64,000 nt of DNA. It comes from Nitrospira sp. Lineage in GTDB: Bacteria; Nitrospirota; Nitrospiria; Nitrospirales; Nitrospiraceae. How positions within the stretch are numbered: the stretch's first letter is position 1; every line of letters begins with the position of its first letter. The stretch is taken from assembly GCA_024760545.1 (NCBI GenBank), contig CP060501.1, positions 3,240,036 through 3,304,035 of the forward strand, in the 5' to 3' direction. The notes below the pieces were generated by a model. It was not told the origin of the DNA, did no database searches, and worked only from the letters and a program-made list of their open reading frames with translations. Positions 515-15,492 of this stretch are shown here, one piece after another. Both the position numbers and the translations under genes were made by a program.

Positions 515-1618
515 ATGAGCAAACCGCTTCCCAAGCGAGTCAGACGGAATACGCCGAGTTCAGGCGCGACGAGCGTCGCCATCATCGGCGCCGGTCGTGG
601 TGGTACGGCATTGATGGAGATTTTTGCGAATGACCCGCTGGTGCAGATTGTGGGCGTCGCGGAACGCGATCCGGAAGCGCCGGGACTGGGATTGGCCAAA
701 CAGCTCAGAATCCCGATCACCCGCGATTATCGACAGTTGTTGGCAATGGAGCGAGTCGATCTGGTCATCGATGTGTCGGGCGACGCGGATGTCTGGGTGT
801 TTCTCCAGGATTTTCATCGCATGGGGGTGACGATCATCGGCGGTGCCAGCGCCAAGTTCATGTGGGAATTGATCGAAGCTCGGATTCGCGCAACGGCCGA
901 GATTGAGAAGACCTTGAACAAATATCAATCCCTGTACCGGCTCTACGTGAAAGAGAGCGGAGCAGCGGTGACGGAGGAGCGGACCAGAATAGCCTGCGAG
1001 ATGCACGATGGACTGGTGCAAAGCCTGGCGGGAGTGAATTTCAAACTGGATCTCTGCCAACAACTGTTCCGGAAGAATCCAAGAGCCAGTTTGACCACCA
1101 TCAAAGAGAGTAAGGCCCAACTCAAGTTGGCCATTCAGGAGGCCCGGCAGGTCATTTTCAACCTCCGGCCCTTGCACTATGACAAGATGGAATTGATTCC
1201 CGCCCTGACAAACTATTTCAAATCCTACGAGATCCAGACCCACATCAACACGAAGTTTACGGTGGCCGGGGATGAGCAAATCCTCTTTCCACGAACGAAG
1301 ATATTCCTTTTCCGGATCATCCAGGAAGCCTTGAGCAACGTTCAGAAACATGCGAAAGCCGACCGCGTCTCGATCAAACTGGACATCGCGATCGATATGT
1401 TGCGCGTCACCATCACCGACAACGGGGTAGGCTTCGACCTGGAAACTGTTTTGCGTGACCCTGAAAAGTGGGATCATTTCGGGATTAAGGGCATCTTGGA
1501 ACGAGCGCGCTTAGTCGGAGGAGAGGGACGCGTCCAATCCAAACCGGGGAAGGGCACAAAAATTATCGTCGAGGTGCCGCTGGGTTATAAGGAGGAGAGG
1601 GGCAATGGAGAAAATTAA
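515..1618 (+). CDS. Soluble sensor histidine kinase (HisKA_3 type) with N-terminal NAD(P)-binding-like domain
   Basis: This 367-residue cytoplasmic kinase should phosphorylate the adjacent response regulator. Residues 20-115 look like a Rossmann fold: a beta strand leads into GAGRGG at 25-30 (GxGxxG), a second strand ends at VGVAERD, and VDLVIDVSG follows, as in dehydrogenase or CoA/NAD-binding domains. A helical linker leads to the dimerisation/phosphoacceptor motif ACEMHDGLVQ with His164, then a HATPase_c domain with an N box (EALSNVQKHA, 271-280), DNGVGF (302-307) and GKGT. No transmembrane segment is visible. The kinase class and motifs are seen. Sensing of a dinucleotide or redox state is inference. 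The ATG at 515 precedes the whole Rossmann strand. Confidence 0.9.
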   Translation: MSKPLPKRVRRNTPSSGATSVAIIGAGRGGTALMEIFANDPLVQIVGVAERDPEAPGLGLAKQLRIPITRDYRQLLAMERVDLVIDVSGDADVWVFLQDFHRMGVTIIGGASAKFMWELIEARIRATAEIEKTLNKYQSLYRLYVKESGAAVTEERTRIACEMHDGLVQSLAGVNFKLDLCQQLFRKNPRASLTTIKESKAQLKLAIQEARQVIFNLRPLHYDKMELIPALTNYFKSYEIQTHINTKFTVAGDEQILFPRTKIFLFRIIQEALSNVQKHAKADRVSIKLDIAIDMLRVTITDNGVGFDLETVLRDPEKWDHFGIKGILERARLVGGEGRVQSKPGKGTKIIVEVPLGYKEERGNGEN

Positions 1619-2276
1619 GGTTCTGATTTCCGATGATCACCGAGTCGTCCGGGAAGGCTTGGCCGCCATTCTCAAGACCAAAGAGGACATTCAAGTCATC
1701 GGTGAAGCGCAGGACGGTGTTGAGGCGGTGGAGAAAGCTCGTGCCCTGCTTCCGGACGTCATTTTGATGGATGTGAGCATGCCGCGAATGGGGGGCGTGG
1801 AGGCAACGAGACAGATCAAACGCGAATTTCCCCACATCGGCATCGTGGCCTTGACCATGTATGAGGAACAGCAATACATCTTCGATCTCGTCCGTGCCGG
1901 AGCGACGGGGTATTTGCTGAAAGACTCCGAATCGTCGCAGATCGTTGCGGCCATACGCGCCATCTATCGAGGCGAATCACTGATCCACCCCTCCGTCGCC
2001 AGCAAAATCTTGGCCGAATTCTCGTTGATGGCCCAAAAGAAAGGAAAGAAGCCGGCTTGGGCGGAGCATGATTTGACCGAGCGGGAGATTACGGTGTTAC
2101 GATTGGTCGCCGACGGCAAAACCAACAAGGAGATTGCCAACAACCTCGATCTCAGTGAAAAGACCGTGAAGAATCACGTCCGGAACATCTTCCACAAGCT
2201 GCAAGTCTACGACCGTACACAAGCGGCAATTCTCGCCATCCGCAAAGGACTGATCGAGCTCGATCCGAAGCGGTAG
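1605..2276 (+). CDS. NarL/FixJ-family response regulator
   Basis: This 223-residue DNA-binding response regulator is the likely partner of the preceding kinase. Its start lies inside the kinase gene (14-base overlap), which implies translational coupling. The receiver domain (1-120) has the acidic pair D10-D11, phosphoacceptor Asp56 in ILMDVSMP, the Thr of ALTMYEE and the Lys of YLLKDSES. A linker leads to a LuxR-type helix-turn-helix near 155-210 (LTEREITVLRLVADGKTNKEIA, then SEKTVKNHVRNIF). A Shine-Dalgarno-like AAGGAGGAGAGG sits just upstream of the ATG. The target genes cannot be read from the sequence; the convergent repeat-protein cluster next door is one untested possibility. Confidence 0.95.
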   Translation: MEKIKVLISDDHRVVREGLAAILKTKEDIQVIGEAQDGVEAVEKARALLPDVILMDVSMPRMGGVEATRQIKREFPHIGIVALTMYEEQQYIFDLVRAGATGYLLKDSESSQIVAAIRAIYRGESLIHPSVASKILAEFSLMAQKKGKKPAWAEHDLTEREITVLRLVADGKTNKEIANNLDLSEKTVKNHVRNIFHKLQVYDRTQAAILAIRKGLIELDPKR

Positions 2277-2436: not shown

Positions 2437-3738
2437 CTAGCGGAATCCACGGTCTATGGTGATGGTGTAGGTTCTGGGGTTTCCATTCGGTGCAGTCACG
2501 GTGATCGATGCTACGGTGATTGTCCCTGGCCCATTCAATGGAATGGCCGCCCGGCCGGTTGCGATTCCTGCCCCAGCTACCACTGAACCGGACATCACAG
2601 CGCTCGGATCAGCTTTGGTTGCGGAAACGGTCACACTGTCGATACCGGCGCCGACGGTGACCGTGTAGATCGGGATACCTGGAGCAAACGCGGGAATCAA
2701 ACGGCCTGGGGTCACGTTCAACGCCGACAAGGCATTCTCGCTGCCGGGTGTTGCTCGATTTACGGTAATGCCATATGTTTTTGAATCTCCATTCGGTGCC
2801 GTCACAGTAATTGACACGGCGGTCGATGTTCCTTGCCCTCCGAGCGTAATGGCCGCCTGGCCGGTTGCGGACCCGGCAGCAGCGGACACCGAACCAGACA
2901 TCACGGCGTTCGGATCGGCTTTGGTCGCGGAGACGGTCACACTGTCGATGCTGCTGCCGACTGTGACCGTGTAGTTCAGGGTGCTTTGGGCAAACGCGGG
3001 AACCAAAACGCCTGGGGTCACACTCAACGCCGACAGATTGTTGTTTACTCGACTCACCGTGATGCGGTACGTCTTCGCGATTCCATTCGACGCGGTTACG
3101 GTGATCGACACCACGGTACTTGACCCTGGCTGGCCCAACGGAATGGCCGCCTGGCCGGTTGCGGACCCGGCAGCAGCGGACACCGAACCGGACATCACGG
3201 CGTTCGGATCGGCTTTGGTCGCGGAGACGGTCACACTGGTGACGTCGGCGTCGACATCCGTTGTGTAGTTCAAAGTGCCTGGAGCAAAAGCCGGCGACAA
3301 GGAGCCTGGTGTCACGCTTAACGCCGACAGATCGTTGTTTACTTTGCGCACAATGACGACATACGTGTGCTGATTTTGGCTCGGTGCCGTCAACACGATA
3401 ATGATATTCGTTGTAGGCTGCGGGAGCGCGATGGTGCGTGCCTGCCCAGCGCTCGTCTCTTGCCCGTTGATGGTCATCGTTGTTCCGCTGTCTTGAGGGG
3501 TGGCTCTTACAGTGACGCTGGTGTCCGCTGTCGACACGTCGACCGTATAGCTGGTGATATCGCTGGAAAAAGCCGGATCAAGCCCTCCAGGGCTAACGCT
3601 ACCGGTAACGCTCAAGCTGGCGAGCTGCCCCTCCTTGTTAACCGACGCGGTATCCTGGCAGCCGGAGGTCCCCAAGCCGATGACAATCAGAAAGACGGCA
3701 GCAATAAATTGTCCGGCTATGGTGAGCGTGCGCCTCAT
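2437..3738 (-). CDS. Exported cadherin-like beta-sandwich repeat protein, 4 repeats
   Basis: This is the last of four tandem paralogues. The product (about 433 residues) starts with a signal-like segment (MRRTLTIAGQ, then a hydrophobic stretch ending GTSGC). The Cys after Gly suggests a lipoprotein, although the -3 residue is not the usual Leu. Four repeats of about 95 residues follow, each opening with a form of LSALSVTPGxLxPAF and closing with VTAPNGxxKTYxITVxR, the pattern of the Pfam cadherin-like family (PF12733). Repeats 2 and 3 share almost identical DNA 294 bases apart. The start is set by alignment with the paralogues, which all begin M-x-x-T. A role as surface or periplasmic adhesion or scaffold protein is inference. 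Confidence 0.85.
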   Translation of the reverse strand: MRRTLTIAGQFIAAVFLIVIGLGTSGCQDTASVNKEGQLASLSVTGSVSPGGLDPAFSSDITSYTVDVSTADTSVTVRATPQDSGTTMTINGQETSAGQARTIALPQPTTNIIIVLTAPSQNQHTYVVIVRKVNNDLSALSVTPGSLSPAFAPGTLNYTTDVDADVTSVTVSATKADPNAVMSGSVSAAAGSATGQAAIPLGQPGSSTVVSITVTASNGIAKTYRITVSRVNNNLSALSVTPGVLVPAFAQSTLNYTVTVGSSIDSVTVSATKADPNAVMSGSVSAAAGSATGQAAITLGGQGTSTAVSITVTAPNGDSKTYGITVNRATPGSENALSALNVTPGRLIPAFAPGIPIYTVTVGAGIDSVTVSATKADPSAVMSGSVVAGAGIATGRAAIPLNGPGTITVASITVTAPNGNPRTYTITIDRGFR

Positions 3739-3771
3739 GTAATGCAGGTCACTTTCTCTCGATCGATGATG

Positions 3772-3835
3772 AGCTGTCTGTTTCGGTGAACCCAAACGGT
3801 AGGCGTAGAGGCTACGAGAGGGCTCAAAATCAGCC
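3772..3835 (-). promoter_or_regulatory. Structured 5' leader element of the 4-repeat gene
   Basis: The transcript from the promoter at 3863-3891 would carry this 64-nt element about 34 bases before the ATG. Two nested helices can form: outer GGCUG (3831-3835) with CAGCU (3772-3776), and inner UGAGCCC (3820-3826) with GGGUUCA (3787-3793) including one G-U pair. The loop side contains the conserved CUCUCGUAG. The equivalent element at 5708-5771 has the same length, with pair changes that keep the outer helix. Function is unknown: RNA switch, protein-binding site or operator. Confidence 0.5.
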
Positions 3836-3862
3836 TATGAGGTTTTCACAAGGCTTAGTGAT

Positions 3863-3891
3863 GGTATAGCTGATCCAATTTGTCGGGTCAA
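3863..3891 (-). promoter_or_regulatory. Sigma-70 promoter for the 4-repeat gene
   Basis: On the minus strand TTGACC (3886-3891) and TATACC (3863-3868) are separated by 17 bases, a good match to the housekeeping consensus. The predicted transcript start near 3856 gives a leader of about 118 bases before the ATG at 3738. The same arrangement is present before two paralogues. The rest of the gap up to 4055 shows nothing recognisable. Confidence 0.65.
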
Positions 3892-4055
3892 CACATTGGA
3901 TTAGGAGCTGTGAGGATTGCGAAGGGTCCGAGGCAGGTTGCGCCGATGGCTGCGGAGCATTTCTTTGCGCGCTTCCACGTGCTCAGTGTGGAATTCAGTT
4001 TGGAGATAAATGGATTCAATGGATTTATTGGATCTACGAATGCGAGGACGATTCG

Positions 4056-5669
4056 CTAGCGGAACGGTCGGCTCACGGTGATGCGGTAGGTTTTTGGGGT
4101 CCCATCCGGTGCGGTCACGGTGATTAACACCTCAGTGCTTGTTCCCAGCCCCACGGAGGCGTTCACTTGGCCCGTTGGGTCCCCTGCCACGGCGATTACC
4201 GATCCGGAGGAGGACATCACTGCATTCGGGTCGGATTTGGTGGCGGTAATGGTCACATTGGCGACTCCGCTGTCGACGTTCACTGCGTAGGTCACGATGC
4301 TCGGAGTAAAGGGTGGTGCCAGGCTGCCCGATGACACAGTCAAGGCTGACAAGTTGTTGTTCGCGGACGCTGCTCGGCTCACGGTGATGCGGTAGGTCTT
4401 GGAGTTTCCATTCGGAGCGGTCACGACAATGGAAATGCTCGTGTCCGATCCCGGAGCGCCGAGGGCAATGTCGCGGCCTTGGCCTGAGCTGGTTCCCTGT
4501 CCATTCACCACCATGCTCGCATTCGAATCTGCTTTCGTCGCGGTGACGGTTACGTCGGAGACCGTGGTCGCCACGTCCACCGTGTAGGTTGTGGTCCCTG
4601 AAGCAAACCCAGGATCCAAGGAGCCTTGTGTCACAGTCAATGCCGACAAGTTATTATTGCTGGCGAGCGCCGCTCGTTCTACCGTGATGCGGTAGGTCTT
4701 TGAGTTTCCATTTTGGGCAGTCACGGTGATCGCCACCGAGGTGGTCGTCCCTGGCCCCCCGAGTTGAATGGATGTTTGTCCCGAAGCTGTTCCCGTCCCG
4801 GCGGTTATCGAACCGGACATCTCAGCATTCGAATCGGACTTGGTCGCGAAGACGGTCACGCTCGTAACGGTGGCCGCCACATCTGCGGTGTAGGTCAAGG
4901 TCCCAGCAGTAAAGGCGGGAGACAAGGCGCCCGGGGTCACACGCAAGGCCGAGAGATTATTATTGCCCGATTCCGCTCGATTGACGACGACGACATAGGT
5001 GTTGCGGCTTCCGCTCTGCGCCGTTAAGACGATCGTAATGCTTGTGCTTGACCCCAGCGATCCCAGCGTGACGGTGCGTCCCTGCCCAACGCCGGTGGCA
5101 GCGCCGTTGATCGTCATGGTGGTCGTGTTGTCTTCAGGGGTGGCCACCACCGAGACGCTCGTCACGGTGCTCGCCACGTCTACCACATAGCTCGAGGTGC
5201 TTGGAGCAAATGCAGGGGACAAGACGCCTGGAGTTACGCTCAAAGCCGACAGATCGCTATTGTTCGATGCCGTTCTATTGACGACGACGACATAGGTGTT
5301 GCGACTTCCACTCTGCGCCGTTAACGCGATCGTAATGCTCGTGCGCGACCCGAGGCCTCCTAACGCGACGGTGCGTCCCTGTCCCGCGTTGGTGGCAGCG
5401 CCGTTGATCGTCATGGTGGTCGTGTTGTTCTCAGGGGTGGCGGTCACCGTGACGCTGGTGACGGTCGTCGAGACATCGACCTCATAGCTGACGGTGTTGC
5501 TTGAAAAGGCCGGCCGGAGCACCCCGGGGCTGACGGATAGGCTGGAGAGTTGGGCCTCCGGTTCATTCGAGAGCGACCCGCTGTCCTGGCAACCGGAGAA
5601 ACCTAGTCCAATCGCGAGGAAGAGAACGGCAACGAGAGATCTAGCTGCGACTGTGATGGTACGTCCCAT
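4056..5669 (-). CDS. Exported cadherin-like beta-sandwich repeat protein, 5 repeats
   Basis: This is the second paralogue in the cluster, about 537 residues. An N-terminal export signal (MGRTITVAARS, hydrophobic core, GFSGCQD) may be a non-standard lipobox. Five repeats of 90-100 residues follow, each with LSxLxVxxGxLxPxF at its start and a KTYRITVxR-type end; repeats 1, 2 and 4 carry the variant TMTINGAAT/VVNGQGT loop. Repeats are joined by short Ala/Ser/Asn linkers. The ATG at 5669 is preferred over upstream in-frame codons because AGGAAGGTGATC, a near-perfect ribosome site, lies about 10 bases before it and the paralogues start at the same place. The molecular partner is unknown. Confidence 0.85.
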   Translation of the reverse strand: MGRTITVAARSLVAVLFLAIGLGFSGCQDSGSLSNEPEAQLSSLSVSPGVLRPAFSSNTVSYEVDVSTTVTSVTVTATPENNTTTMTINGAATNAGQGRTVALGGLGSRTSITIALTAQSGSRNTYVVVVNRTASNNSDLSALSVTPGVLSPAFAPSTSSYVVDVASTVTSVSVVATPEDNTTTMTINGAATGVGQGRTVTLGSLGSSTSITIVLTAQSGSRNTYVVVVNRAESGNNNLSALRVTPGALSPAFTAGTLTYTADVAATVTSVTVFATKSDSNAEMSGSITAGTGTASGQTSIQLGGPGTTTSVAITVTAQNGNSKTYRITVERAALASNNNLSALTVTQGSLDPGFASGTTTYTVDVATTVSDVTVTATKADSNASMVVNGQGTSSGQGRDIALGAPGSDTSISIVVTAPNGNSKTYRITVSRAASANNNLSALTVSSGSLAPPFTPSIVTYAVNVDSGVANVTITATKSDPNAVMSSSGSVIAVAGDPTGQVNASVGLGTSTEVLITVTAPDGTPKTYRITVSRPFR

Positions 5670-5707
5670 CTCGAGGCGATCACCTTCCTTTGATGCGTGA
5701 AGTGATG

Positions 5708-5771
5708 AGCCAGTCGGTTCTGGTGAACCCAAACGTGAGATGTGGAAATGACGAGAGGGTTCAAATTGGCT
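5708..5771 (-). promoter_or_regulatory. Structured 5' leader element of the 5-repeat gene at 4056
   Basis: In the transcript, AGCCA (5767-5771) can pair with UGGCU (5708-5712), enclosing a perfect UGAACCC (5757-5763)/GGGUUCA (5724-5730) helix. Relative to the element at 3772-3835 the outer helix differs at two base pairs that both remain paired (C-G to U-A and A-U to G-C), and the total length is again 64 nt. The loop sequence CUCUCGU is shared. The element begins about 10 nt after the predicted transcript start. Its role is not known. Confidence 0.5.
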
Positions 5772-5785
5772 GAGCAGGAGTTAAA

Positions 5786-5814
5786 TGTATAGCCAATCCG
5801 ACCAGTGAGGTCAA
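5786..5814 (-). promoter_or_regulatory. Sigma-70 promoter for the 5-repeat gene at 4056
   Basis: TTGACC (5809-5814) and TATACA (5786-5791) on the minus strand are spaced by 17 bases. Transcription would start near 5779, giving a leader of about 110 bases. The -35 and its following TCAC resemble the promoter at 8738-8767, pointing to duplication of promoter and gene together. Confidence 0.65.
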
Positions 5815-5907
5815 GACTTCAAATCGAGCGGGGGTAAATCGGGATGCATGGGAATCGGACGCTTATGGCGAGAGAGATTCTGTGAGAGGCCTATTCTTCC
5901 GGAGCTG

Positions 5908-5976
5908 TGACCGTCTCAGCCATTCATATTCCTGATATCAGGACATTCAGATCGGCATTGAGGACTGAGACGGTCA
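5908..5976. repeat. Inverted repeat, 12-bp perfect arms with inner palindrome
   Basis: TGACCGTCTCAG (5908-5919) and its exact reverse complement (5965-5976) flank 45 bases that contain the palindrome CCTGATATCAGG (5931-5942). It lies just downstream of the minus-strand gene ending at 5994. There is no T-run, so a classical intrinsic terminator is not supported; a transcript-stabilising hairpin or the remnant of a small element is possible. Confidence 0.6.
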
Positions 5977-5993
5977 TGCCATTGGTATTGAAC

Positions 5994-8591
5994 TTATCCT
6001 GGTCCTCCAGGGGCTGTGCTGTCGATGGTCACACTCAAGCCGCCACTCTGATCAGATTCAAGGCTCGTTGCCGTACTAGTCACTGTGCTGGTAATCGTGT
6101 GGGGCCCGTCACTCAGCGATGACGTTGGCTGTAGGGTACCCGCACTAAAGGTAGATCCGACTTTGTTTCCATCCACATACAGGTTTGGAGTCAGACCTGC
6201 GCCCGGCTGAGGTATTGCAAATCTAGGTGTCGTGATGTTGGTGTTGTTGTCCGACCTACTAGTGCCAGGCGCGCACCCATCAGGATCAGGATTTGTAGGA
6301 TCAGGAGGATCAAGAAGGGGACAGGAGTCATCCGCTGCTATCAGATTTGGCGCACTCGCTGGCGCCGGCGGCGGACTCGCCGGAGCCGCCCGGTTCACGG
6401 TGATCGTGTAGGTCTGAACGTTAACCCCGTTCTGGGCGGTTACAGTGATCGACACCGATGTGGAAGTTCCTGCTCCGTTCAATGGAACAGTCGCTTGACC
6501 TGATGCTGTTCCCGCTGGGATGGTCGCACCACCTAAGGACATAACGGCATTTGAGTCGGACTTAGTCGCGGAAACTGTGACGCTCGTGACGGTGCTATCA
6601 ACGTTCGTTGTGTAGTTCAGTGTGCTCGCAGCAAAGTTAGGAGATAGGGTACCTTGTGTAACGCTCAATGCCGACAGGTTATCGTTGCTCCCGAGCGCCG
6701 CTCTGTTCACGTTAATGCGGTATGTCTTTGAGTTTCCATTGGGGGCCGCCACGTCGATCAACACAGGCGTGGTTGTCCCTGGGCCGCCGAGTTGAATGGT
6801 TGCTTGGCCGGTTGCTGTCCCTGCTCCGGCGGTCACGTCCTCGGACATCACGGCATTCACATCGGCCTTTGTAGCCGAGACATTGACGCTGGTGACGTTG
6901 CTCGCCACGTTCACTGAATAGGTAAGGGTGCTCGCAGAGAAGGCAGGAGACAGGGTGCCTTGCGTCACGCTCAAGGCCGACAGGTTGTTGTTACTTGCGA
7001 GCGCTGCGCGATTCACGGTGACGCGGTATGACTTGGGGCTGCCATTCGGAGCAGTAACCGTGATCAAAACCACGGTGCCCGTCCCTTGCCCGCCGAGTTG
7101 AATGGTCGCTTGACCGGTTGCCGTTCCCGCGCCGGCTATCACGTCTTCAGACATCACGGCAGTTGCATCGGCTTTGGTGGCCGAGACATTCACGCTGGTG
7201 ACAGTACTCGCCACGTTCACTGTGTAGTTTAGGGTGTTTTGCGCAAACGCAGGAGCCAAGGCACCTTGCGTGACACTCAATGCCGAGAGATTATTGTTTC
7301 CACCAAGCGCGGCACGGATGACGTTCACCGTGTATGTATTCTGGCTGCCGTTCTGTGCCCTCACCGTAATATTGATCAAGGTGTTCGATCCGGCCGCATT
7401 CAATCCGATGGTCCGAGCCTGCCCGGAGTTGGTGGCTTGATTATTCACCGTCATGGTCGCCGCGGTATCTTGCAGCGTCGGCGTCACCGTAAATTGGGTC
7501 ACGCCGCTTACTACGTTGACTGTGTAATCCTCTGTACCGGCGCTGAAGGCGGGGGCTAAGGATCCCGGCGACACAGCCAAACCCTGAAGATTATTGTTTC
7601 CCGCAAGCGCGGCGCGCATGACGTTTACGGAATACGTCTTCTGAGTCCCATTCTGTGCGGTTACCACGATATTGATAAAGGTGCTCGATCCGGCCGCATT
7701 CAATGCGATAGTTCGGGCCTGCCCGGAGTTGGTGGTTTGATTATTCACCGTCATAGTTGACGCGGTATCTTGCAGCGTCGGCGTCACCGTAAATTGGGTC
7801 ACGCCACTTCCCACGTTGGCCGTGTATCCAACTGTGCCTGCGTTGAAGGATGGGGCCAACGTTCCTGGTGAAATGGCCAGACCTTGCAAGTTGTTGTTGG
7901 CGGATACTCCGCGGCTTACAGTCACGAGATAGGTTTTGTCATTGCCATTCTGGGCGGTCACGATAATCGTGATGCTTGTGCTTTGGCCTGGGCCATTGAG
8001 GGATACTGCGCGGGCTTGACCAGAGACCGCGGCTTGTCCATTCACGGTCACCGTTGCAGCAGGATCCGACAGCGTGGGAGTTATATTGACGCTTCCGACG
8101 TTGTTGGCAACACTTACGGTATAGCTTTGCACGTTCGCATCGAATGCAGGCGCCAGTGTTGCGGAGGCTACCGCCAAACTCTGCAATGAATTGTTTCCAG
8201 CCAATCCTGCTCTGACCAGACGGACTGTGTAGGTTCTCGAATTATTGGTTGATTCTGAAACCACAACATTGACGACTGTCGTTGACCCTGCCGGGTCCAG
8301 TGTAATGGTACGGCTTGTCGTCGACTGCCCATTGATAGACACAGTGTCGCCTGACACGGCCGCTTGAGCGGTGATGATCACACTTGCAATGTTATTGGTC
8401 AGATCGACACGGTATGAGGTTGTTCCCGCGCTAAACCCCGGTTGAAGTGTGCCGGGACTGACTGTGAGCCTGGAGAGTTCCACTTCTGGGTTGACTGTCG
8501 CTGAGTCGCCACAACCATAGGCGCTCAACCCGAGTGCAACAAGAAAAGCGGCGGCTAGATACTGTCCAGCAACGGTCATGGTGCGTTTCAT
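5994..8591 (-). CDS. Large exported repeat protein: 7 cadherin-like repeats plus C-terminal Bap/Ig-like domain
   Basis: This is the largest paralogue, about 865 residues. A signal segment (MKRTMTVAGQY, hydrophobic core, SAYGC, possible lipoprotein Cys) is followed by seven beta-sandwich repeats. Repeats 1-4 carry the LQGLAxSPGxLAPxF form and 5-7 the LSALSVTQGxLxPxF form. A Pro/Asp-rich linker leads to an extra domain with DNNTNITTPRF, LYVDGNKVG, LSDGPHTITSTVT and VTIDSTAP, typical of bacterial Ig-like modules in large adhesins. The protein stops right after the STAP motif, where another module would usually begin, so it may be truncated. Repeats 3 and 4 are nearly identical DNA 300 bases apart. 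An alternative ATG lies at 8600; paralogy favours 8591. Confidence 0.85.
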   Translation of the reverse strand: MKRTMTVAGQYLAAAFLVALGLSAYGCGDSATVNPEVELSRLTVSPGTLQPGFSAGTTSYRVDLTNNIASVIITAQAAVSGDTVSINGQSTTSRTITLDPAGSTTVVNVVVSESTNNSRTYTVRLVRAGLAGNNSLQSLAVASATLAPAFDANVQSYTVSVANNVGSVNITPTLSDPAATVTVNGQAAVSGQARAVSLNGPGQSTSITIIVTAQNGNDKTYLVTVSRGVSANNNLQGLAISPGTLAPSFNAGTVGYTANVGSGVTQFTVTPTLQDTASTMTVNNQTTNSGQARTIALNAAGSSTFINIVVTAQNGTQKTYSVNVMRAALAGNNNLQGLAVSPGSLAPAFSAGTEDYTVNVVSGVTQFTVTPTLQDTAATMTVNNQATNSGQARTIGLNAAGSNTLINITVRAQNGSQNTYTVNVIRAALGGNNNLSALSVTQGALAPAFAQNTLNYTVNVASTVTSVNVSATKADATAVMSEDVIAGAGTATGQATIQLGGQGTGTVVLITVTAPNGSPKSYRVTVNRAALASNNNLSALSVTQGTLSPAFSASTLTYSVNVASNVTSVNVSATKADVNAVMSEDVTAGAGTATGQATIQLGGPGTTTPVLIDVAAPNGNSKTYRINVNRAALGSNDNLSALSVTQGTLSPNFAASTLNYTTNVDSTVTSVTVSATKSDSNAVMSLGGATIPAGTASGQATVPLNGAGTSTSVSITVTAQNGVNVQTYTITVNRAAPASPPPAPASAPNLIAADDSCPLLDPPDPTNPDPDGCAPGTSRSDNNTNITTPRFAIPQPGAGLTPNLYVDGNKVGSTFSAGTLQPTSSLSDGPHTITSTVTSTATSLESDQSGGLSVTIDSTAPGGPG

Positions 8592-8629
8592 AATTAGCAT
8601 CGTCTTTCTTTAGAGGTATGAAGTGTCAG

Positions 8630-8688
8630 GTCCATCATTGTGAACCCTAACAAGAGGTGCGGACACTACGAGACGGCTCAAACTGGTC
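8630..8688 (-). promoter_or_regulatory. 5' leader element of the 7-repeat gene (degenerate version)
   Basis: This is the counterpart of the leaders at 3772 and 5708. UUUGAGCC, UCUCGUAGU and GGGUUCAC are conserved in order and spacing. The outer helix GACCA/UGGAC keeps four of five pairs, and the inner helix UGAGCC/GGUUCA keeps six, counting a G-U. It is weaker evidence for structure than the other two but supports a shared element. Confidence 0.4.
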
Positions 8689-8737
8689 CATTTACCCACT
8701 CATGCACCAGTGTATGTTTCAGTGAACGGGGGCAGTA

Positions 8738-8767
8738 CGTATAACCGATCCACTTGGGTGAGGTCAA
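8738..8767 (-). promoter_or_regulatory. Sigma-70 promoter for the 7-repeat gene
   Basis: TTGACC (8762-8767) and TATACG (8738-8743) on the minus strand are separated by 18 bases. The predicted leader to 8591 is about 140 bases. Together with the leader element this promoter occupies most of the 400-base gap between the 7-repeat gene and the next paralogue. Confidence 0.55.
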
Positions 8768-8954
8768 GAGCCATCAGGCGGCGGTGGGCTGGGCTCTGCG
8801 GGAATCAAGTACCTACTGTGGGCAAGATTTTCGATGAGAATTGTGAGGCCGCTCGGGTCACTCACCCAGGGTGTGAGAACCGCTGGTGTTCGGACTAGCG
8901 GGATTGTGTGGGTCGTATACTGGTATGGCGATGTCGATACGGCGGCTCTATGAT

Positions 8955-8980
8955 CCGTCGGATCCCATAGGATCCGACGG
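8955..8980. other. Perfect 11-bp hairpin after the 5-repeat gene at 8996
   Basis: CCGTCGGATCC and its exact reverse complement surround a 4-base loop CATA, 15 bases past the stop codon of the minus-strand gene ending at 8996. There is no T-run on either side, so this is a strong 3' hairpin rather than a textbook intrinsic terminator. It could protect the transcript end. Confidence 0.6.
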
Positions 8981-8995
8981 CGAGTGGGATCATTT

Positions 8996-10582
8996 CTAGA
9001 ATAACGTTCTGACGATGACAACAGAGTATGGCTTTGATTCTCCGTTCGGGGCCGTAACGGTGATCGACACCGTCACGGGTAATAGTGGTACGAGGAGAAA
9101 GGGCTGTTGTCCTGTTGCGACCCCGGCTCCAGCCGTTACGTCACCCGACATCACGGCATTCGGATCGGATTTGGTTGCGGAGACGATTACACTGTCGACA
9201 CTGAACGGAACTTCCACCGAATACGTCGTTGTGCTCTGAGCAAAGTCGGGAACCAAGGTGCCGGGTGTCACCGTCAATGCCGACAGGTTGTTGTCGCTGG
9301 CCGGAGCAGCTCGGTTCACAGTGATCCGGTATGTCTTTGAGGTGCCATTCGGAGCCGTCACGATGATGGACACCAGCTTGCTGGTCCCCGGTCCATCGAG
9401 CGGGATAATTGCGTGTCCTTGATTGGGCACATCACCCGATATTACGGCATTCGAATCGGACTTCGTTGCCGTGACGGTCACTTCGGTAACGTCAGTGGCC
9501 ACATCCACCGTGTAGTTCAAGGTTCCCGAAGCAAATGGAGGAGCCAAGGCGCCTGGTGTGACCGTCAAGGCCGACAGATTGTTGTCACTTGAGAGAAGAC
9601 GGTTCACGGTAATCGTATAAGTCTTTGAGTCGCCATTCGGGGCTGTGACACTAATCGATACGATCTTGCTGGTCCCCGGTCCATCGAGCGGGATAATTGC
9701 TTGTCCTTGATTGGGCACGTCACCCGATATCACGGCATTCGAATCGGACTTCGTGGCTGTCACGGTCACTGCAGTGACATTGGTGGCCACATCCACCGAG
9801 TAGTTCAAAGTAGCCGGAGCAAACGCGGGATCCAAGACACCTGGTGTGACCGTTAAGGCCGACAGATTGTTATCGCCGGAGAGGCGGTTGACAGTAATGG
9901 TGTAGGTCTTAGCGGCGCCATTCGGCGCTGTGACAGTGATCGACACCTGCTTGCTGGTCCCTGGCGCATCAAGCGGGATGGTCGCTTGTCCTGTTGCGAC
10001 TCCTGCTCCAGCCGTTACCGAACCAGACATCACAGCAATAGGGTCAGATTTCGTTGCCGAGACGGACACTTGGGTAACCGAGGTAGCAACGTTAACGGTG
10101 TAGTTCAAGGTAGCCGGATCAAAGGCAGGGGCCAACGGGCCCGGTGTGACGGTCAACGCTGATAGATTATTGTCGCTTGATAAGGGTCTAATGACGTCGA
10201 CGCTATAAGTGGTTTCGCCTCCTGTCTGTGTCGTCAAATTGATGCTGATGGTGGTAGTCGATCCAGGAGGACCAAGTGTCACGATGCGCCCCTGCCCAGC
10301 ACTTGTTAGGTTCCCATTGATCGTAATCGTTGCTTTACTATCCTTGGGCCTGGCCGTCACTGTGACACTGGCCGTGGCTGCCGATACTCTGAATGCGTAA
10401 CTTGTGACATTGCTTGAAAAGGCCGGCTGGAGCTTCCCGGGGGTAATTCCCAAGCTCGAGAGTGGTACCTCAGGTTCATCCGAAACCGAGGCTTTATCCG
10501 AACAGCCAAAGGCGCTCAAACAAAGAGCGACGATCAGGGTAGCGGCTAGATATTGGCATATGGCAGTAACGGTTTGTTTCAT
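8996..10582 (-). CDS. Exported cadherin-like beta-sandwich repeat protein, 5 repeats (first of cluster)
   Basis: The product is about 528 residues. An export signal (MKQTVTAICQY, hydrophobic core, SAFGCSD, possible lipoprotein Cys) precedes five repeats. Repeat 1 is of the TITINGNLTSAGQGR type; repeats 2-5 begin DNNLSALTVTPG. Repeats 3 and 4 are nearly identical DNA 288 bases apart. In the last repeat the usual ATIPLDGPGTS segment reads QPFLLVPLLPVT, while the flanking sequence is normal; this suggests a short out-of-frame stretch between two compensating indels. The start at 10582 follows the paralogues; an in-frame GTG lies at 10609. Adhesion or envelope scaffold function is inference. Confidence 0.85.
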   Translation of the reverse strand: MKQTVTAICQYLAATLIVALCLSAFGCSDKASVSDEPEVPLSSLGITPGKLQPAFSSNVTSYAFRVSAATASVTVTARPKDSKATITINGNLTSAGQGRIVTLGPPGSTTTISINLTTQTGGETTYSVDVIRPLSSDNNLSALTVTPGPLAPAFDPATLNYTVNVATSVTQVSVSATKSDPIAVMSGSVTAGAGVATGQATIPLDAPGTSKQVSITVTAPNGAAKTYTITVNRLSGDNNLSALTVTPGVLDPAFAPATLNYSVDVATNVTAVTVTATKSDSNAVISGDVPNQGQAIIPLDGPGTSKIVSISVTAPNGDSKTYTITVNRLLSSDNNLSALTVTPGALAPPFASGTLNYTVDVATDVTEVTVTATKSDSNAVISGDVPNQGHAIIPLDGPGTSKLVSIIVTAPNGTSKTYRITVNRAAPASDNNLSALTVTPGTLVPDFAQSTTTYSVEVPFSVDSVIVSATKSDPNAVMSGDVTAGAGVATGQQPFLLVPLLPVTVSITVTAPNGESKPYSVVIVRTLF

Positions 10583-10637
10583 ATGAAGCCATCCATTTTC
10601 GATTGACACTGAAGGAATGAGGTCTTTTCAAACTCCT

Positions 10638-10683
10638 GTGAATCCACAGGGTAGAACTGGATACTACGAGAGGGTCCTAAATC
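10638..10683 (-). promoter_or_regulatory. Conserved leader motif upstream of the 5-repeat gene at 8996
   Basis: GATTTAGGACCCTCTCGTAGT followed by GGATTCAC matches the primary-sequence motif found before the three sister genes. The helices of the other leaders do not form here; instead CCUGUG-GAUU-CACAGG makes a local 6-bp hairpin. No convincing TTGACC/TATAC promoter is visible upstream, so expression of this copy may differ. Confidence 0.35.
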
Positions 10684-10821
10684 GGTCTAGCCCTACATAG
10701 GTAAGGGTTTGCCTGAATTTTAAGGAGCGAAGGATCCGAGGATGAAATTATTATTTTGGAGCTGGAATGCTGAAGGTGCCGGTAGTCACAAGTCTATCGG
10801 ACATCTTTGACTGCGAGGCCA

Positions 10822-12204
10822 TCACTGTCCGGTTCCCTGAGTGCCCTGCGGTTTGGCGAGAAGGTCGGTCTTGAGTGGAATCTGGGTGAGGAGATCAGGA
10901 CGCACTTGAAACACACCCTGCAGACGTTGGCCGGTGGCAAAGACAAGGTTTCCTGCATGGTTGCCGAGCGTCAGTTTTCCGATGGTTTTGCCGTCTTTGC
11001 CGGTGGCGACAAATTCCGCACTGGGCGCCAATAGTCCATACGGAGCCAGCGGCGCCGACTGCTTCATCACGCGTTCCTCGGCCGGCAGATTCGCAACTCG
11101 ACTGACGAAGAGATCCGCCGCCTCTTGGCTGACCTTATCCGTAGGCTGGTCTTCGAGCACCCACTCGCCGGTTTGATTGATCAAGACATACTGCTGATCT
11201 CTGGTTTTGACCGACAACATCGCGATATCCGTGTAGTCAAGGCCGAGGAGTCGTTTATCCTGCAGATTGAACAGCTCCTTGGTCAGGTCCTTGAGCAGCG
11301 CCGGGTTGATGTAATAGAGCGGCGCATCGGCTGTCGTTTCCGCAATGGCCTCGCCGCTTTGGGGATCGGGCTGATAGAGCCGGACTGATTGGTCGCCGGC
11401 GGCGGTATGTAGCGTGACCTTCACTTTTGGCGTCGTCAGGGTCTTGGCAATAGCGTCTCGTTCGGGGCCGGGATCGATGATGCCAAGCGCCTTCAGGTCT
11501 TCCAATCGAAACATCATTGAACGAACTTCATTCTGGTCTGCTTCGGCTTCGATCGGATAACGGATTTTCCACAAGGGCTTGGGCTTGTCCTTGGCCATAT
11601 TGTAGATCACGATTTCGGTCGTCGGATAGGTCAGGCGAACCCGCTCGATGTCGTTTTGCACGAATCTCAGCAGCTCTTTCCGGCGGAACGCCATCAAGGA
11701 TTTATTGATGAAGTCTTTCGGCGCCAGGTTCGTCAGGAGCACACGCCGGTCCGATACACGCAGCACATAGAGAGTATTTGAAAGGGGACCGCTGTCGCCG
11801 ATCAAAATCGTCTCTTGTTGCGTTCCGGCTGTGATGGTGAGAGTAGTCACCGGCTGTTCAAGCCCGAATGGCGCCAGTGTGGTGGCTTGCTCTTCAACCG
11901 TTCTATTCACAGCCCCCGTCACTAACGCTCGAATGAGTGCCTGCACCTCGCGGTTATCCGCATCCGTTTGAAGGGGGGTTACGATAGTCCACTTGCCAGG
12001 TTCCGTCAGCTTGAATTCGATCGGTCCCTGTGCGGTGGTGATGGAGAGTCCGGTGATCGCGGTTTCCGGGAAAAGCAGGAGGTGCTTCTGCTCGCTTTCC
12101 TGTTTCTCTTCTCGTTGCTTGGCGGGAAATTCGACGAGATAGAGGTAGCCACCCAGACCGGCCAGCACGGCGAACATGAGTAAAGTCGGCCAGTAGCGCG
12201 TCAT
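10822..12204 (-). CDS. DUF4340 domain protein of a Gld-like ABC system
   Basis: This 460-residue protein has one N-terminal membrane helix (YWPTLLMFAVLAGLGGYLYL) followed by a charged stretch and a long periplasmic region. The pattern ITGLSITTAQGPIEFKL, PGKWTIVTP, ADNREVQALIRAL is the DUF4340 module, which occurs more than once along the chain (a second copy around VLINQTGEWVLEDQP). It is the last gene of a four-gene operon, 3 bases after the GldG-like gene. Known relatives sit with GldA/GldF/GldG-type ABC transporters; the biochemical role is not established. Confidence 0.85.
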   Translation of the reverse strand: MTRYWPTLLMFAVLAGLGGYLYLVEFPAKQREEKQESEQKHLLLFPETAITGLSITTAQGPIEFKLTEPGKWTIVTPLQTDADNREVQALIRALVTGAVNRTVEEQATTLAPFGLEQPVTTLTITAGTQQETILIGDSGPLSNTLYVLRVSDRRVLLTNLAPKDFINKSLMAFRRKELLRFVQNDIERVRLTYPTTEIVIYNMAKDKPKPLWKIRYPIEAEADQNEVRSMMFRLEDLKALGIIDPGPERDAIAKTLTTPKVKVTLHTAAGDQSVRLYQPDPQSGEAIAETTADAPLYYINPALLKDLTKELFNLQDKRLLGLDYTDIAMLSVKTRDQQYVLINQTGEWVLEDQPTDKVSQEAADLFVSRVANLPAEERVMKQSAPLAPYGLLAPSAEFVATGKDGKTIGKLTLGNHAGNLVFATGQRLQGVFQVRPDLLTQIPLKTDLLAKPQGTQGTGQ

Positions 12205-12207
12205 AGG

Positions 12208-13731
12208 CTAGAGGCGGCGGCGTTTTCTCCACACGATGATGCCGGTGAGAAACGTCATGAGCGGAAGGAAGACGACCTGAATGTAAATCAACGCGCGTTC
12301 CTGCGTGGGGTTAGGCGTGAAGGGTCGCAACGCGGGCTCTTTTGGCGCGATGGAAATCAAGTCGCGTTCTTCTGCCAGCCAACCCGTCGTGTGGAGGAAA
12401 AAGTCGCTGTTGCCGGGAAAATTGAAAAACGCGTTGGACACAAACGTGGAGTTGCCGATCACCACGATAGCCGGACGCGGTTTCCCTTCTTCAGGAGCCT
12501 TCTTAGGCGCCAGCGCTGCGGCCATGGGTAGCGGTCCTTTCACGTCTTCCTTTTCGTTCAGGCTCACGACCCGGCCCTGCATATTCGTTTCAGCCCAACT
12601 GTTCGGCGATGTACGGGCAAGCGGCACGAAGTCCCAATCTTTTCCAACTAGTTCGTCGAACATCACGTGTCGGGACAGTGGCAACAGCACGGCAGAGGTG
12701 AGGTCCTGGGTGATCTCATGCTCAGTAAACGTCCTGACCAATAGTGCGGTAAGGTCTCCCTGGGCCAATCGATCCTGTAAGTCCACCAAGACCCCGGGAC
12801 CCAAGCCGAGTCCCCAATGGGCGAGCAGTGACTCCAAACCAGTCTGAGTGTCGGGGTCGGCCAGAACCAAAAGATGGCCGCCCTTCTCGACATAGTTCTG
12901 AATACGGTCCTGCTCCTCTTTCATCACAGCGCGGCGTGGGCCGGCCAAGACCAACACTGAAGTATTGTCCGGCACGGCCGATTCCTTCAGGAGCGAGATG
13001 GTGCCGACCTCATAGCCTTGACGAGTCAGGGCTTCTTTCGCAAGGGAAAGGCCGTTGCGATCCTTATCCTCGACACTCAGCTCGCTGTGCCCCTCGACAA
13101 ACACGATGCGTTTCTTGGCGTCCTTGGATATTCGAAGCAGGGCACCGGTCAATTCCACTTCAGACGGTGAGGTGACGCGGATCGTCTGGCCGTTGCTCTC
13201 AAAAATTGCGGTATCGGTTCGGAAGATTCCATAGTTTTGGGCAAGCTTTGGCTGTTTCTCCGGATCGATGAACTCTATGGTGAGCTTCGTGGAGGCTTGT
13301 CGATAACTCTCCAGTCGTTCCTTATAGGCCTGGTAGCCGGGATCTTTTTCCCTCGTGAAAACGGTGATCTTGACGTCGCGCGCCAAGGTTCGAAGGATCC
13401 GATGAGTTTGCGGTGCGAGCGTGAAATTCTGGTTCTCCGAAAGGTCCCAGCGTACTGAGTGCCGGGACGCCAAAAAGTTCATGATGACCAGAATACCCGA
13501 AACGAGCACGATCATGAGAAAGCTATTCAGCCCCATCTTGGTCGAACGCCGGCCTGAAAAGGCTTTGACGGTCTCGAAGTGCAGGACGAAAAACAGCACC
13601 AAGCAGATCAATGCCAACCCTTCCGCGATCGTGACCGCCCACAGCCAGTCAGGTCGAAGGCTGTACGCAATCATGCCCCCGATTCCGAGCACGACTCCGA
13701 GCAAGCCGAGGGGGAGAGATTTGAGGTTCAT
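12208..13731 (-). CDS. GldG-like auxiliary component of ABC transporter
   Basis: This 507-residue membrane protein has three N-terminal helices (about residues 5-25, 28-50 and 67-87), a large periplasmic domain and a C-terminal helix (QVVFLPLMTFLTGIIVW) ending KRRRL. The soluble part starts with SVRWDLSENQNFTLAPQT, then VKITVFTREKDPGYQ and IEFIDPEKQP, the signature of the ABC-type uncharacterised transport family that includes GldG. Its start overlaps the permease stop by 4 bases (ATGA), so the two are translationally coupled. It probably works as the extracytoplasmic part of the exporter; the substrate is unknown. Confidence 0.88.
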   Translation of the reverse strand: MNLKSLPLGLLGVVLGIGGMIAYSLRPDWLWAVTIAEGLALICLVLFFVLHFETVKAFSGRRSTKMGLNSFLMIVLVSGILVIMNFLASRHSVRWDLSENQNFTLAPQTHRILRTLARDVKITVFTREKDPGYQAYKERLESYRQASTKLTIEFIDPEKQPKLAQNYGIFRTDTAIFESNGQTIRVTSPSEVELTGALLRISKDAKKRIVFVEGHSELSVEDKDRNGLSLAKEALTRQGYEVGTISLLKESAVPDNTSVLVLAGPRRAVMKEEQDRIQNYVEKGGHLLVLADPDTQTGLESLLAHWGLGLGPGVLVDLQDRLAQGDLTALLVRTFTEHEITQDLTSAVLLPLSRHVMFDELVGKDWDFVPLARTSPNSWAETNMQGRVVSLNEKEDVKGPLPMAAALAPKKAPEEGKPRPAIVVIGNSTFVSNAFFNFPGNSDFFLHTTGWLAEERDLISIAPKEPALRPFTPNPTQERALIYIQVVFLPLMTFLTGIIVWRKRRRL

Positions 13732-14498
13732 TTCCAGCGTGTCGATTCCACGACTCGATGTGTGAGGAACAGCATGAGCGCCAGTCCGCTTCCGAAGTAC
13801 ACGAGATCGCTTGTGTCGATGAGTCCCCGCACCAGACGCTCATAGTGCTCCATGAAGGAGACATACGAGATGATTCGGCCTGCAGGGGTGTCGCCGAAAA
13901 GGCTCCCTAACCCGGAAATCAACCAGATCGTTAGCAGCATGCCGAAGCTGACAAAGGCGGCGACGATCTGGTTCTCCGTCAACGCCGACGCAAACACTCC
14001 CACGGAAAGAAAGAGGGCTCCCAACAGCACCATCCCCAGATAGCCGGTCCAGATGGGGTTCCAATCGAAATCGCTGAACAGCATCAATACAGTCGGCACC
14101 AGCACGGTTAGTCCCAAGAGGCCGAGATAAACCAGAAAGACACTGACGAACTTGGCGATGACTATCTCATTGATCCTGATGGGCGACGTCATCAGGAACT
14201 CAAACGTCCGAAGCTTGCGCTCTTCCGCGAACAATCGCATGGTCAGAATAGGCAGAATGAGCAGGAGGACGATACGCATGCTGGCGAAGAGATTTCGAAA
14301 GACCAGATCGTTCAAATTGATCTGGGCCATCCCCCCCTGCATCTGCATCAATTGGATGGCTTGCGCACCGGCAAATCCGACATAGAGATATGAGAGTAGT
14401 CCAAAGATGAGCAGAAAGACGGCCCCCACCACATAGACAATGGGGGATACGAAATACCCACGCAGTTCCTTGGCGATGACGGCCTGCACCGGGGTCAT
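13728..14498 (-). CDS. ABC-2 type permease, GldF-like
   Basis: This 256-residue integral membrane protein has about six hydrophobic helices. It starts with VQAVIAKELRGYFVSPIVYVV, which is characteristic of ABC-2 permeases of the GldF/NosY/CcmB kind, and has the EERKLRTFEFLMTSPI loop that contacts the ATPase. It lies 7 bases after the ATPase gene and overlaps the GldG-like gene by 4 bases. It should form the transmembrane channel of the exporter. Gliding-motility naming comes from Bacteroidetes relatives; gliding in this organism is not implied. Confidence 0.88.
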   Translation of the reverse strand: MTPVQAVIAKELRGYFVSPIVYVVGAVFLLIFGLLSYLYVGFAGAQAIQLMQMQGGMAQINLNDLVFRNLFASMRIVLLLILPILTMRLFAEERKLRTFEFLMTSPIRINEIVIAKFVSVFLVYLGLLGLTVLVPTVLMLFSDFDWNPIWTGYLGMVLLGALFLSVGVFASALTENQIVAAFVSFGMLLTIWLISGLGSLFGDTPAGRIISYVSFMEHYERLVRGLIDTSDLVYFGSGLALMLFLTHRVVESTRWK

Positions 14499-14505
14499 GG
14501 GGTGT

Positions 14506-15492
14506 CTACGCGTCCGTCCTTTCAGCAGAGGCCGTGCTGACCATAGCTTCCGTCGGATCTGAGAGATGGTCCTCGTGGCGCGTGAGGTGGAGGAACACGT
14601 CTTCCAATGTCATAGACACGGTGCGGAGTTCGAGCAATCCCCACTGGTTTGAGACCACCACACGTGCGATCTCGTCCCGCAGATCGTGACCCAGTTCGCA
14701 CTCGATGAGGAAAGTGCCCCCTGCCTGGCCTGGGAGAACATTCAAGATGCCGGAGATCGCACGGAGCTTCATCTCGCAGTCGGCCGGGCATGTCTTGAGG
14801 GTAATTGAAATTTTCTCCGATTGACGTAGTCGGGCCGACAATTGTTCGGGGGTATCCTCCGCGACGATCCGCCCCTTGTTGATAATGACCACTCGTTGGC
14901 AGACTGCCGTCGCTTCCGGGAGGATATGAGTGCTGAGAATGACTGAATGCGAGCCGGCCAGGCTCTTGATGAGTTCCCTGATTTCAATGATCTGTTTGGG
15001 ATCGAGACCGACCGTCGGTTCGTCGAGGATCAGCACCGGGGGGTCGTGCAGCAGCGCTTGTGCCAGTCCTACGCGTTGGCGATAGCCACGGGAGAGGTTG
15101 CCGATCAGCCGGTGGCGTACGGAGCCGAGTTCGAGCCGTCCGACTGATTGGTCGAGCGCTGATGTCAGCTTAGGTCCTGTGATCCCGCGAAGTCGTCCGA
15201 CAAAGGTCAGATATTCGGTGACCGTCAGTTCTTGATAGACCGGCGGAGTTTCCGGCAGGTATCCGATCTGCCGCTTGACCTCCAGTGGTTGATCGGTACA
15301 GTCATAGCCGGCCACTTTCGCACTGCCCTCCGTCGCCGGCATGAAACAGGTCAGGATCCGCATGGTGGTCGTTTTGCCTGCGCCGTTGGGGCCAAGGAAT
15401 GCCAAGACTTCTCCCTTGGCCACGGAGAAGGTGACGCGATCAATAGCCGTGTGATGGCCGTATCGTTTGGTAATGTTCTGAACGTCGATCAC
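14506..15492 (-). CDS. ABC transporter ATP-binding protein, GldA-like
   Basis: This 328-residue ATPase is the first gene of the operon. Walker A GPNGAGKT is at 34-41, the signature LSRGYRQ at 133-139 and Walker B VLILDEP at 153-159, followed by the switch His in LSTHILPEA. A C-terminal extension of about 100 residues (ALKTCPADCEMKL region) is typical of the ABC-2/GldA/NatA group. Translation starts at a GTG (15492), directly at MIDVQNITKRYG. The promoter at 15568-15596 drives this gene and the three downstream genes. Confidence 0.92.
   Translation of the reverse strand: MIDVQNITKRYGHHTAIDRVTFSVAKGEVLAFLGPNGAGKTTTMRILTCFMPATEGSAKVAGYDCTDQPLEVKRQIGYLPETPPVYQELTVTEYLTFVGRLRGITGPKLTSALDQSVGRLELGSVRHRLIGNLSRGYRQRVGLAQALLHDPPVLILDEPTVGLDPKQIIEIRELIKSLAGSHSVILSTHILPEATAVCQRVVIINKGRIVAEDTPEQLSARLRQSEKISITLKTCPADCEMKLRAISGILNVLPGQAGGTFLIECELGHDLRDEIARVVVSNQWGLLELRTVSMTLEDVFLHLTRHEDHLSDPTEAMVSTASAERTDA

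Follow-up and report, generated by a model that had tools for sequence, protein, structure and literature searches.

Four tandem lipoprotein genes of a Nitrospira genome are each preceded by a leader with a common conserved stretch, which raises the question of whether these leaders share an RNA fold and what might read them. We analyzed a 64,000-nt stretch of Nitrospira sp. (GCA_024760545.1, contig CP060501.1, positions 3,240,036–3,304,035, forward strand), hereafter termed the window. An earlier note on this DNA had proposed that the first two leaders adopt the same nested two-helix fold, maintained by compensatory base changes and acting as RNA. Our results indicate that this stretch probably constitutes a small control element that has not been described before.

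The lipoprotein array and its promoters

The four genes and their leaders are all encoded on the minus strand (Table 1). The array lies between two regions (window positions 515–2276 and 10822–15492) that we take to encode a histidine kinase with its response regulator and an operon for an ABC transporter; the kinase/regulator pair is a candidate regulator of the array. The same arrangement of kinase/regulator pair, array, and ABC operon recurs at another locus (L084:3926–9086). Cadherin-like repeats were also found behind a different N-terminus lacking a lipobox in L031:910–2631 (plus strand), L040:4107–6104, and L050 (the latter two on the minus strand, with coordinates referring to the reverse complement); these N-termini presumably resemble TIR domains (SYRREDS..., ISYSSEDK...).

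Table 1. Features of the lipoprotein array in the window
Feature	Position	Strand	Details
Gene 1, lipoprotein, 433 aa	2437..3738	-	Signal peptide and lipobox; 4 Cadherin-like repeats (PF12733, E 2.4e-57)
Leader 1, type A	3772..3835	-	Conserved UCUCGUA 3819-3813
Leader 1 helices		-	Outer GGCUG 3835-3831/CAGCU 3776-3772; inner GAGCCC 3825-3820/GGGUUC 3793-3788
Promoter of leader 1, TTGACC...GATCAGCTATA	3865..3891	-	Genome-wide pattern search
Gene 2, lipoprotein, 537 aa	4056..5669	-	5 Cadherin-like repeats (PF12733, E 1.8e-81)
Leader 2, type A	5708..5771	-	Conserved UCUCGU 5756-5751
Leader 2 helices		-	Outer AGCCA 5771-5767/UGGCU 5712-5708; inner GAACCC 5762-5757/GGGUUC 5730-5725
Promoter of leader 2	5788..5814	-	Genome-wide pattern search
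Gene 3, lipoprotein, 865 aa	5994..8591	-	7 Cadherin-like repeats (PF12733, E 1.7e-104)
Leader 3, type A-like, small divergent group	8619..8697	-	Arms 8679-8674/8647-8642, one mismatch
Promoter of leader 3	8740..8767	-	Genome-wide pattern search
Gene 4, lipoprotein, 528 aa	8996..10582	-	5 Cadherin-like repeats (PF12733, E 6e-71)
Leader 4, type B	10631..10699	-	5' GUAGGG.UAGACC part and sequence blocks
Leader 4 arms	10677-10672/10645-10640	-	One C.A mismatch; inner helix unsupported

A promoter of the form TTGACC-N17/18-TATAC was found shortly 5' of leaders 1–3. The more restrictive pattern TTGACCYSAC-N4-7-GATYRGYTATA, which includes the conserved spacer, occurred three times in the 4.8-Mb genome, solely before these leaders, and in 39 genomes its matches were located on contigs bearing leaders of this kind. 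This promoter, with its conserved spacer, may carry its own operator. Because the promoter lies directly upstream of leaders 1–3, the element falls within the predicted transcript, in agreement with the earlier note; it is preceded by a dedicated promoter and followed by the Shine-Dalgarno region. Among leaders with a recognized promoter, the conserved core lay at a variable distance from the -10 box, mostly 30 to 65 nt, indicating that the element keeps no fixed spacing to the promoter.

Distribution and sequence conservation of the leader element

PF12733 matches were present in 47 of the 79 Nitrospira genomes, often in tandem arrays. From an alignment of 61 leaders (A1), we built a search model (R1) without base pairs to avoid forcing a fold. 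R1 matched in 43 of the 79 genomes. When 197 genomes sampled across the class were searched, its matches were confined to Nitrospira, except for two marginal ones in other genera of the family. The earlier note had suggested checking whether matches in relatives lie before similar repeat genes, and most do: 119 of the 124 sites in fetched DNA precede an open reading frame with Cadherin-like repeats, and the exceptions that were inspected were contig ends or false matches. The confirmed targets were all repeat lipoproteins, with no transport or metabolic gene among them. An exact search for the type A core (type A comprises window leaders 1 and 2 and their relatives) in approximately 85,000 species genomes returned nine records, eight from Nitrospira and one from Nitrospiraceae, and no viral contig. 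Structured and sequence-only models built from the four window leaders each returned 91 sites at E ≤1; these were mostly shared, showing that structure adds no new target class. Bit-score differences between the two models were not used, as the two align ends differently.

Two individual cases deserve mention. An apparent element without a gene in one genome (G025) was rejected, since the downstream lipoprotein is present, interrupted by a run of N at an assembly gap. A genome from another genus of the family (G135; L097:4600–7038) carries the 5' half of the element without the GGGUUC half; this 5' half abuts the start codon of a gene for a lipoprotein bearing He_PIG (Ig-like) repeats, and the motif may thus reach other repeat lipoproteins.

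Throughout the family, the leaders retain CYCUCGUA followed 26 nt further by GGUUCA, with a block spacing of 26 ± 1 nt in 107 of 119 leaders. Information content peaked at approximately 1.5 bits per site over UCUCGUA, as compared with approximately 0.2 in the flanks; conservation of GGGUUCAC was below this peak but clear. The family-wide conservation lies in sequence, and structure varies by branch. Some leaders are traversed by open frames, as would be expected if an upstream peptide were translated or the lipoprotein were extended at its N-terminus; however, the frame relative to gene and motif varies (some leaders read EPSRS, others NPLVVS) and the leaders showed no shared start codon, making such a product highly improbable.

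Structure of the leaders across branches

We compared the four window leaders with their original description. The letters, helices, and two-sided differences reported for leaders 1 and 2 were all present on the minus strand. At two positions of their outer helices both partners have changed (U-A versus C-G and G-C versus A-U), at a further position only one has, and the two helices align only with a one-base shift; their inner helices show the reported A-U versus G-U difference. Leader 3 likewise retains most pairs, with a single inner pair broken, and leader 4 retains the sequence motif, its arms containing one C.A mismatch. With four changed letters and a free one-base register, the outer-helix match is not strong evidence from leaders 1 and 2 alone. 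A pair count on the four window leaders alone was uninformative, as their alignment cannot show the outer one-base shift. In energy folding with flanks, the best pair probability of the inner helix was 1.0 for leader 2, 0.34 for leader 1, and 0.0 for leaders 3 and 4, so that the inner helix is firmly predicted in leader 2 only among the four.

Family-wide tests did not uphold one common two-helix fold. RNAalifold returned 0 pairs from the 61-leader alignment. In an R-scape-like test (G-test with APC, with null alignments in which substitutions were re-placed along a FastTree tree), no complementary pair reached E < 1 for all leaders, type A alone, or type B alone, and the top pairs were mostly non-complementary signatures of subgroups. 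We therefore rejected a fold common to all leaders; the top pairs from gap-free block alignments were likewise set aside as probable register artefacts.

Since family-wide covariation tests were negative, we used an alignment-free arm-swap test, which compares the energy of the duplex formed by the two arms of one leader with that of arms exchanged between leaders (calibration: p < 0.02 in 2.5% of random pairs of sequence segments). For the inner helix GAACCC/GGGUUC in the type A core, p was 0.0008–0.005, and the signal was not owed to any single leader. It was replicated with compensatory changes in relatives after exclusion of the window leaders (p 0.001–0.0025). In an alignment of 30 type A leaders (A4), 92% of the cells of the seven-pair inner helix were paired, three of the seven pairs were changed on both sides, and covariation exceeded that of 499 of 500 shuffles and was well above all slides. 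One leader (L064) carries a double-sided change from C-G to A-U. The commonest compensatory change, U-A to C-G at the closing pair, occurred in six sequences of one ortholog group and may represent few events. The inner helix was fully paired in 28 of 46 type A leaders versus 2 of 76 type B leaders. When whole type A leaders were folded, it seldom dominated the prediction (median probability 0.02). Two further pairs with two-sided changes come from an apical GUAG/CUAC extension, which is broken in a quarter of cells. G-U-type changes in the type A core set were kept in 13 cases and broken in 3, a transition bias that favors the helix, although the stronger conservation of the 3' arm confounds it. 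These comparative data support the inner helix by covariation within the type A branch. Further covariation in a wider alignment, on which the earlier note had made its fold depend, was accordingly not significant across the family but was seen within this branch.

The outer helix in its original geometry gave a weak signal in the leader-1 group (p 0.015–0.06); the leader-2 group yielded none, and neither did the two groups jointly. A helix proposed by RNAalifold for the leader-2 group extends into the promoter and was dropped as not transcribed. Neither pairing of GGGUUC with a downstream GAAC nor pairing of the core with the Shine-Dalgarno region produced an own-versus-swapped signal family-wide.

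Type B leaders, which include window leader 4, make up more than half of the family and keep the sequence blocks, with no arm-swap signal for the inner helix (p 0.45–0.88). A scan of approximately 1,100 overlapping segments yielded type B hairpins that are leads rather than results. In the R group, a hairpin around GGUUCA (z -4.1) lies approximately 15–45 nt past the core; it was seen in L093, L095, L063, and others, all leaders without the inner helix, and its stems differ yet remain complementary (CUACCC/GGGUAG in L093, CGACUG/CAGUCG in L095, and also CCGUC/GACGG). The T group has a candidate GGUUCA/UGRACC hairpin, and type B contains a conserved hairpin at the 5' side, CCUUAC/GUAGGG, with very little variation. 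Type B leaders thus seem to use other local hairpins instead of the inner helix.

Candidate modes of recognition

The main rival to an RNA element is a DNA operator, in which a protein would bind two half-sites downstream of the promoter, GAACCC and GGGTTC, separated by approximately three helical turns. The inverted repeat at fixed spacing and a dedicated promoter suggestive of specific transcription control agree with such an operator, but type B loses the half-site symmetry while retaining asymmetric blocks, the distance to the promoter varies, and G-U-type changes in type A are more often kept than broken, a count confounded by the stronger conservation of the 3' arm. Taken together, we regard an operator as rather unlikely. 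That the leaders have no RNA function, having been inherited with gene copies so that their complementary arms reflect descent and chance, would fit the finding that all genes are paralogs in tandem arrays and the negative family-wide structure tests; the sharp conservation peak inside an otherwise diverged leader and the replicated inner-helix signal argue against it and render it distinctly unlikely.

A riboswitch for a metabolite or an ion, with an aptamer of two helices, is suggested by the earlier note's mention of a ligand. It could account for the location in the 5' UTR, the size of approximately 45–60 nt, and, in type A, the conserved loop that is left unpaired above a supported stem. 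However, the fold differs between branches though the sequence is kept, which is at odds with a conserved aptamer fold, and 119 of the 124 sites precede genes for Cadherin-like repeat proteins, targets without a metabolite tie. Neither a terminator nor an alternative structure sequestering the Shine-Dalgarno sequence was demonstrated. Moreover, Rfam (release 15, 4227 models) matched only tRNAs in the window at gathering score and, with E relaxed to 5, nothing credible in 3600–10900. We saw no sign of a ligand for these leaders; a metabolite riboswitch is possible but unsupported, and we judge it improbable. The leaders resemble Rfam 15 riboswitches in being structured 5' UTR leaders, in one branch only, and differ from them in lacking a match up to E 5, a family-wide fold, and metabolic targets.

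The durable blocks, the stem in one branch, the fixed block spacing, the variable promoter distance, and the single target family fit a trans-acting factor better than an aptamer. The element is likely a genus-specific cis-acting 5'-UTR element recognized mainly by sequence. With roughly even confidence, we propose that it serves a Nitrospira-specific paralogous family of surface lipoproteins and is read by a putative trans-acting factor. This factor, most likely either a small RNA or a protein that binds RNA, would recognize the blocks on the mRNA and jointly set the translation or stability of the lipoprotein mRNAs, with a local stem presenting the blocks to it. In type B the stem would have been replaced by other local hairpins, and for this reason the sequence would outlive the fold.

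A stronger version, that the leaders constitute an undescribed Nitrospira class of regulatory RNA, appears unlikely: branch-specific hairpins (GAACCC/GGGUUC in type A; around or after GGUUCA in type B) would hold both blocks so that one trans-acting factor controls the lipoprotein set, and GGUUCA would possibly switch between upstream and downstream partners.

The proposed trans-acting recognition has counterparts in known systems. Autogenous ribosomal-protein leaders are an example of cis-regulatory 5'-UTR motifs bound by protein. Like such motifs, the Nitrospira leaders carry short conserved blocks that a local stem presents ahead of the ribosome binding site; unlike autogenous leaders, they precede genes for surface lipoproteins rather than for the putative binder. 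One small RNA can also target several mRNA leaders, and the many leaders here, which are probably co-regulated and share one short, near-invariant block, are reminiscent of such targets; in contrast to such systems, a search of this genome with an exact complementary 10-base seed found no candidate small RNA. The antisense seed CTACGAGAGG had 6 exact matches in the genome versus 26 for the reversed control, and the four matches away from the array all overlapped long open frames; a multi-copy antisense seed was rejected for want of any excess.

The leader element appears undescribed. A full-text search of open-licence papers found none naming these lipoproteins in Nitrospira, and the titles of open-licence papers on Nitrospira and riboswitches indicated none on such leaders. 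The compensatory pairs with which the analysis began carry a lesson, namely that such pairs between two paralogs can mark a real helix in one branch without a common fold.

Nitrospira are central nitrifiers, and to our knowledge little is known about the regulation of their surface proteins. The promoter pattern and the leader element, confined to one tandem family, provide a ready handle on a regulon.
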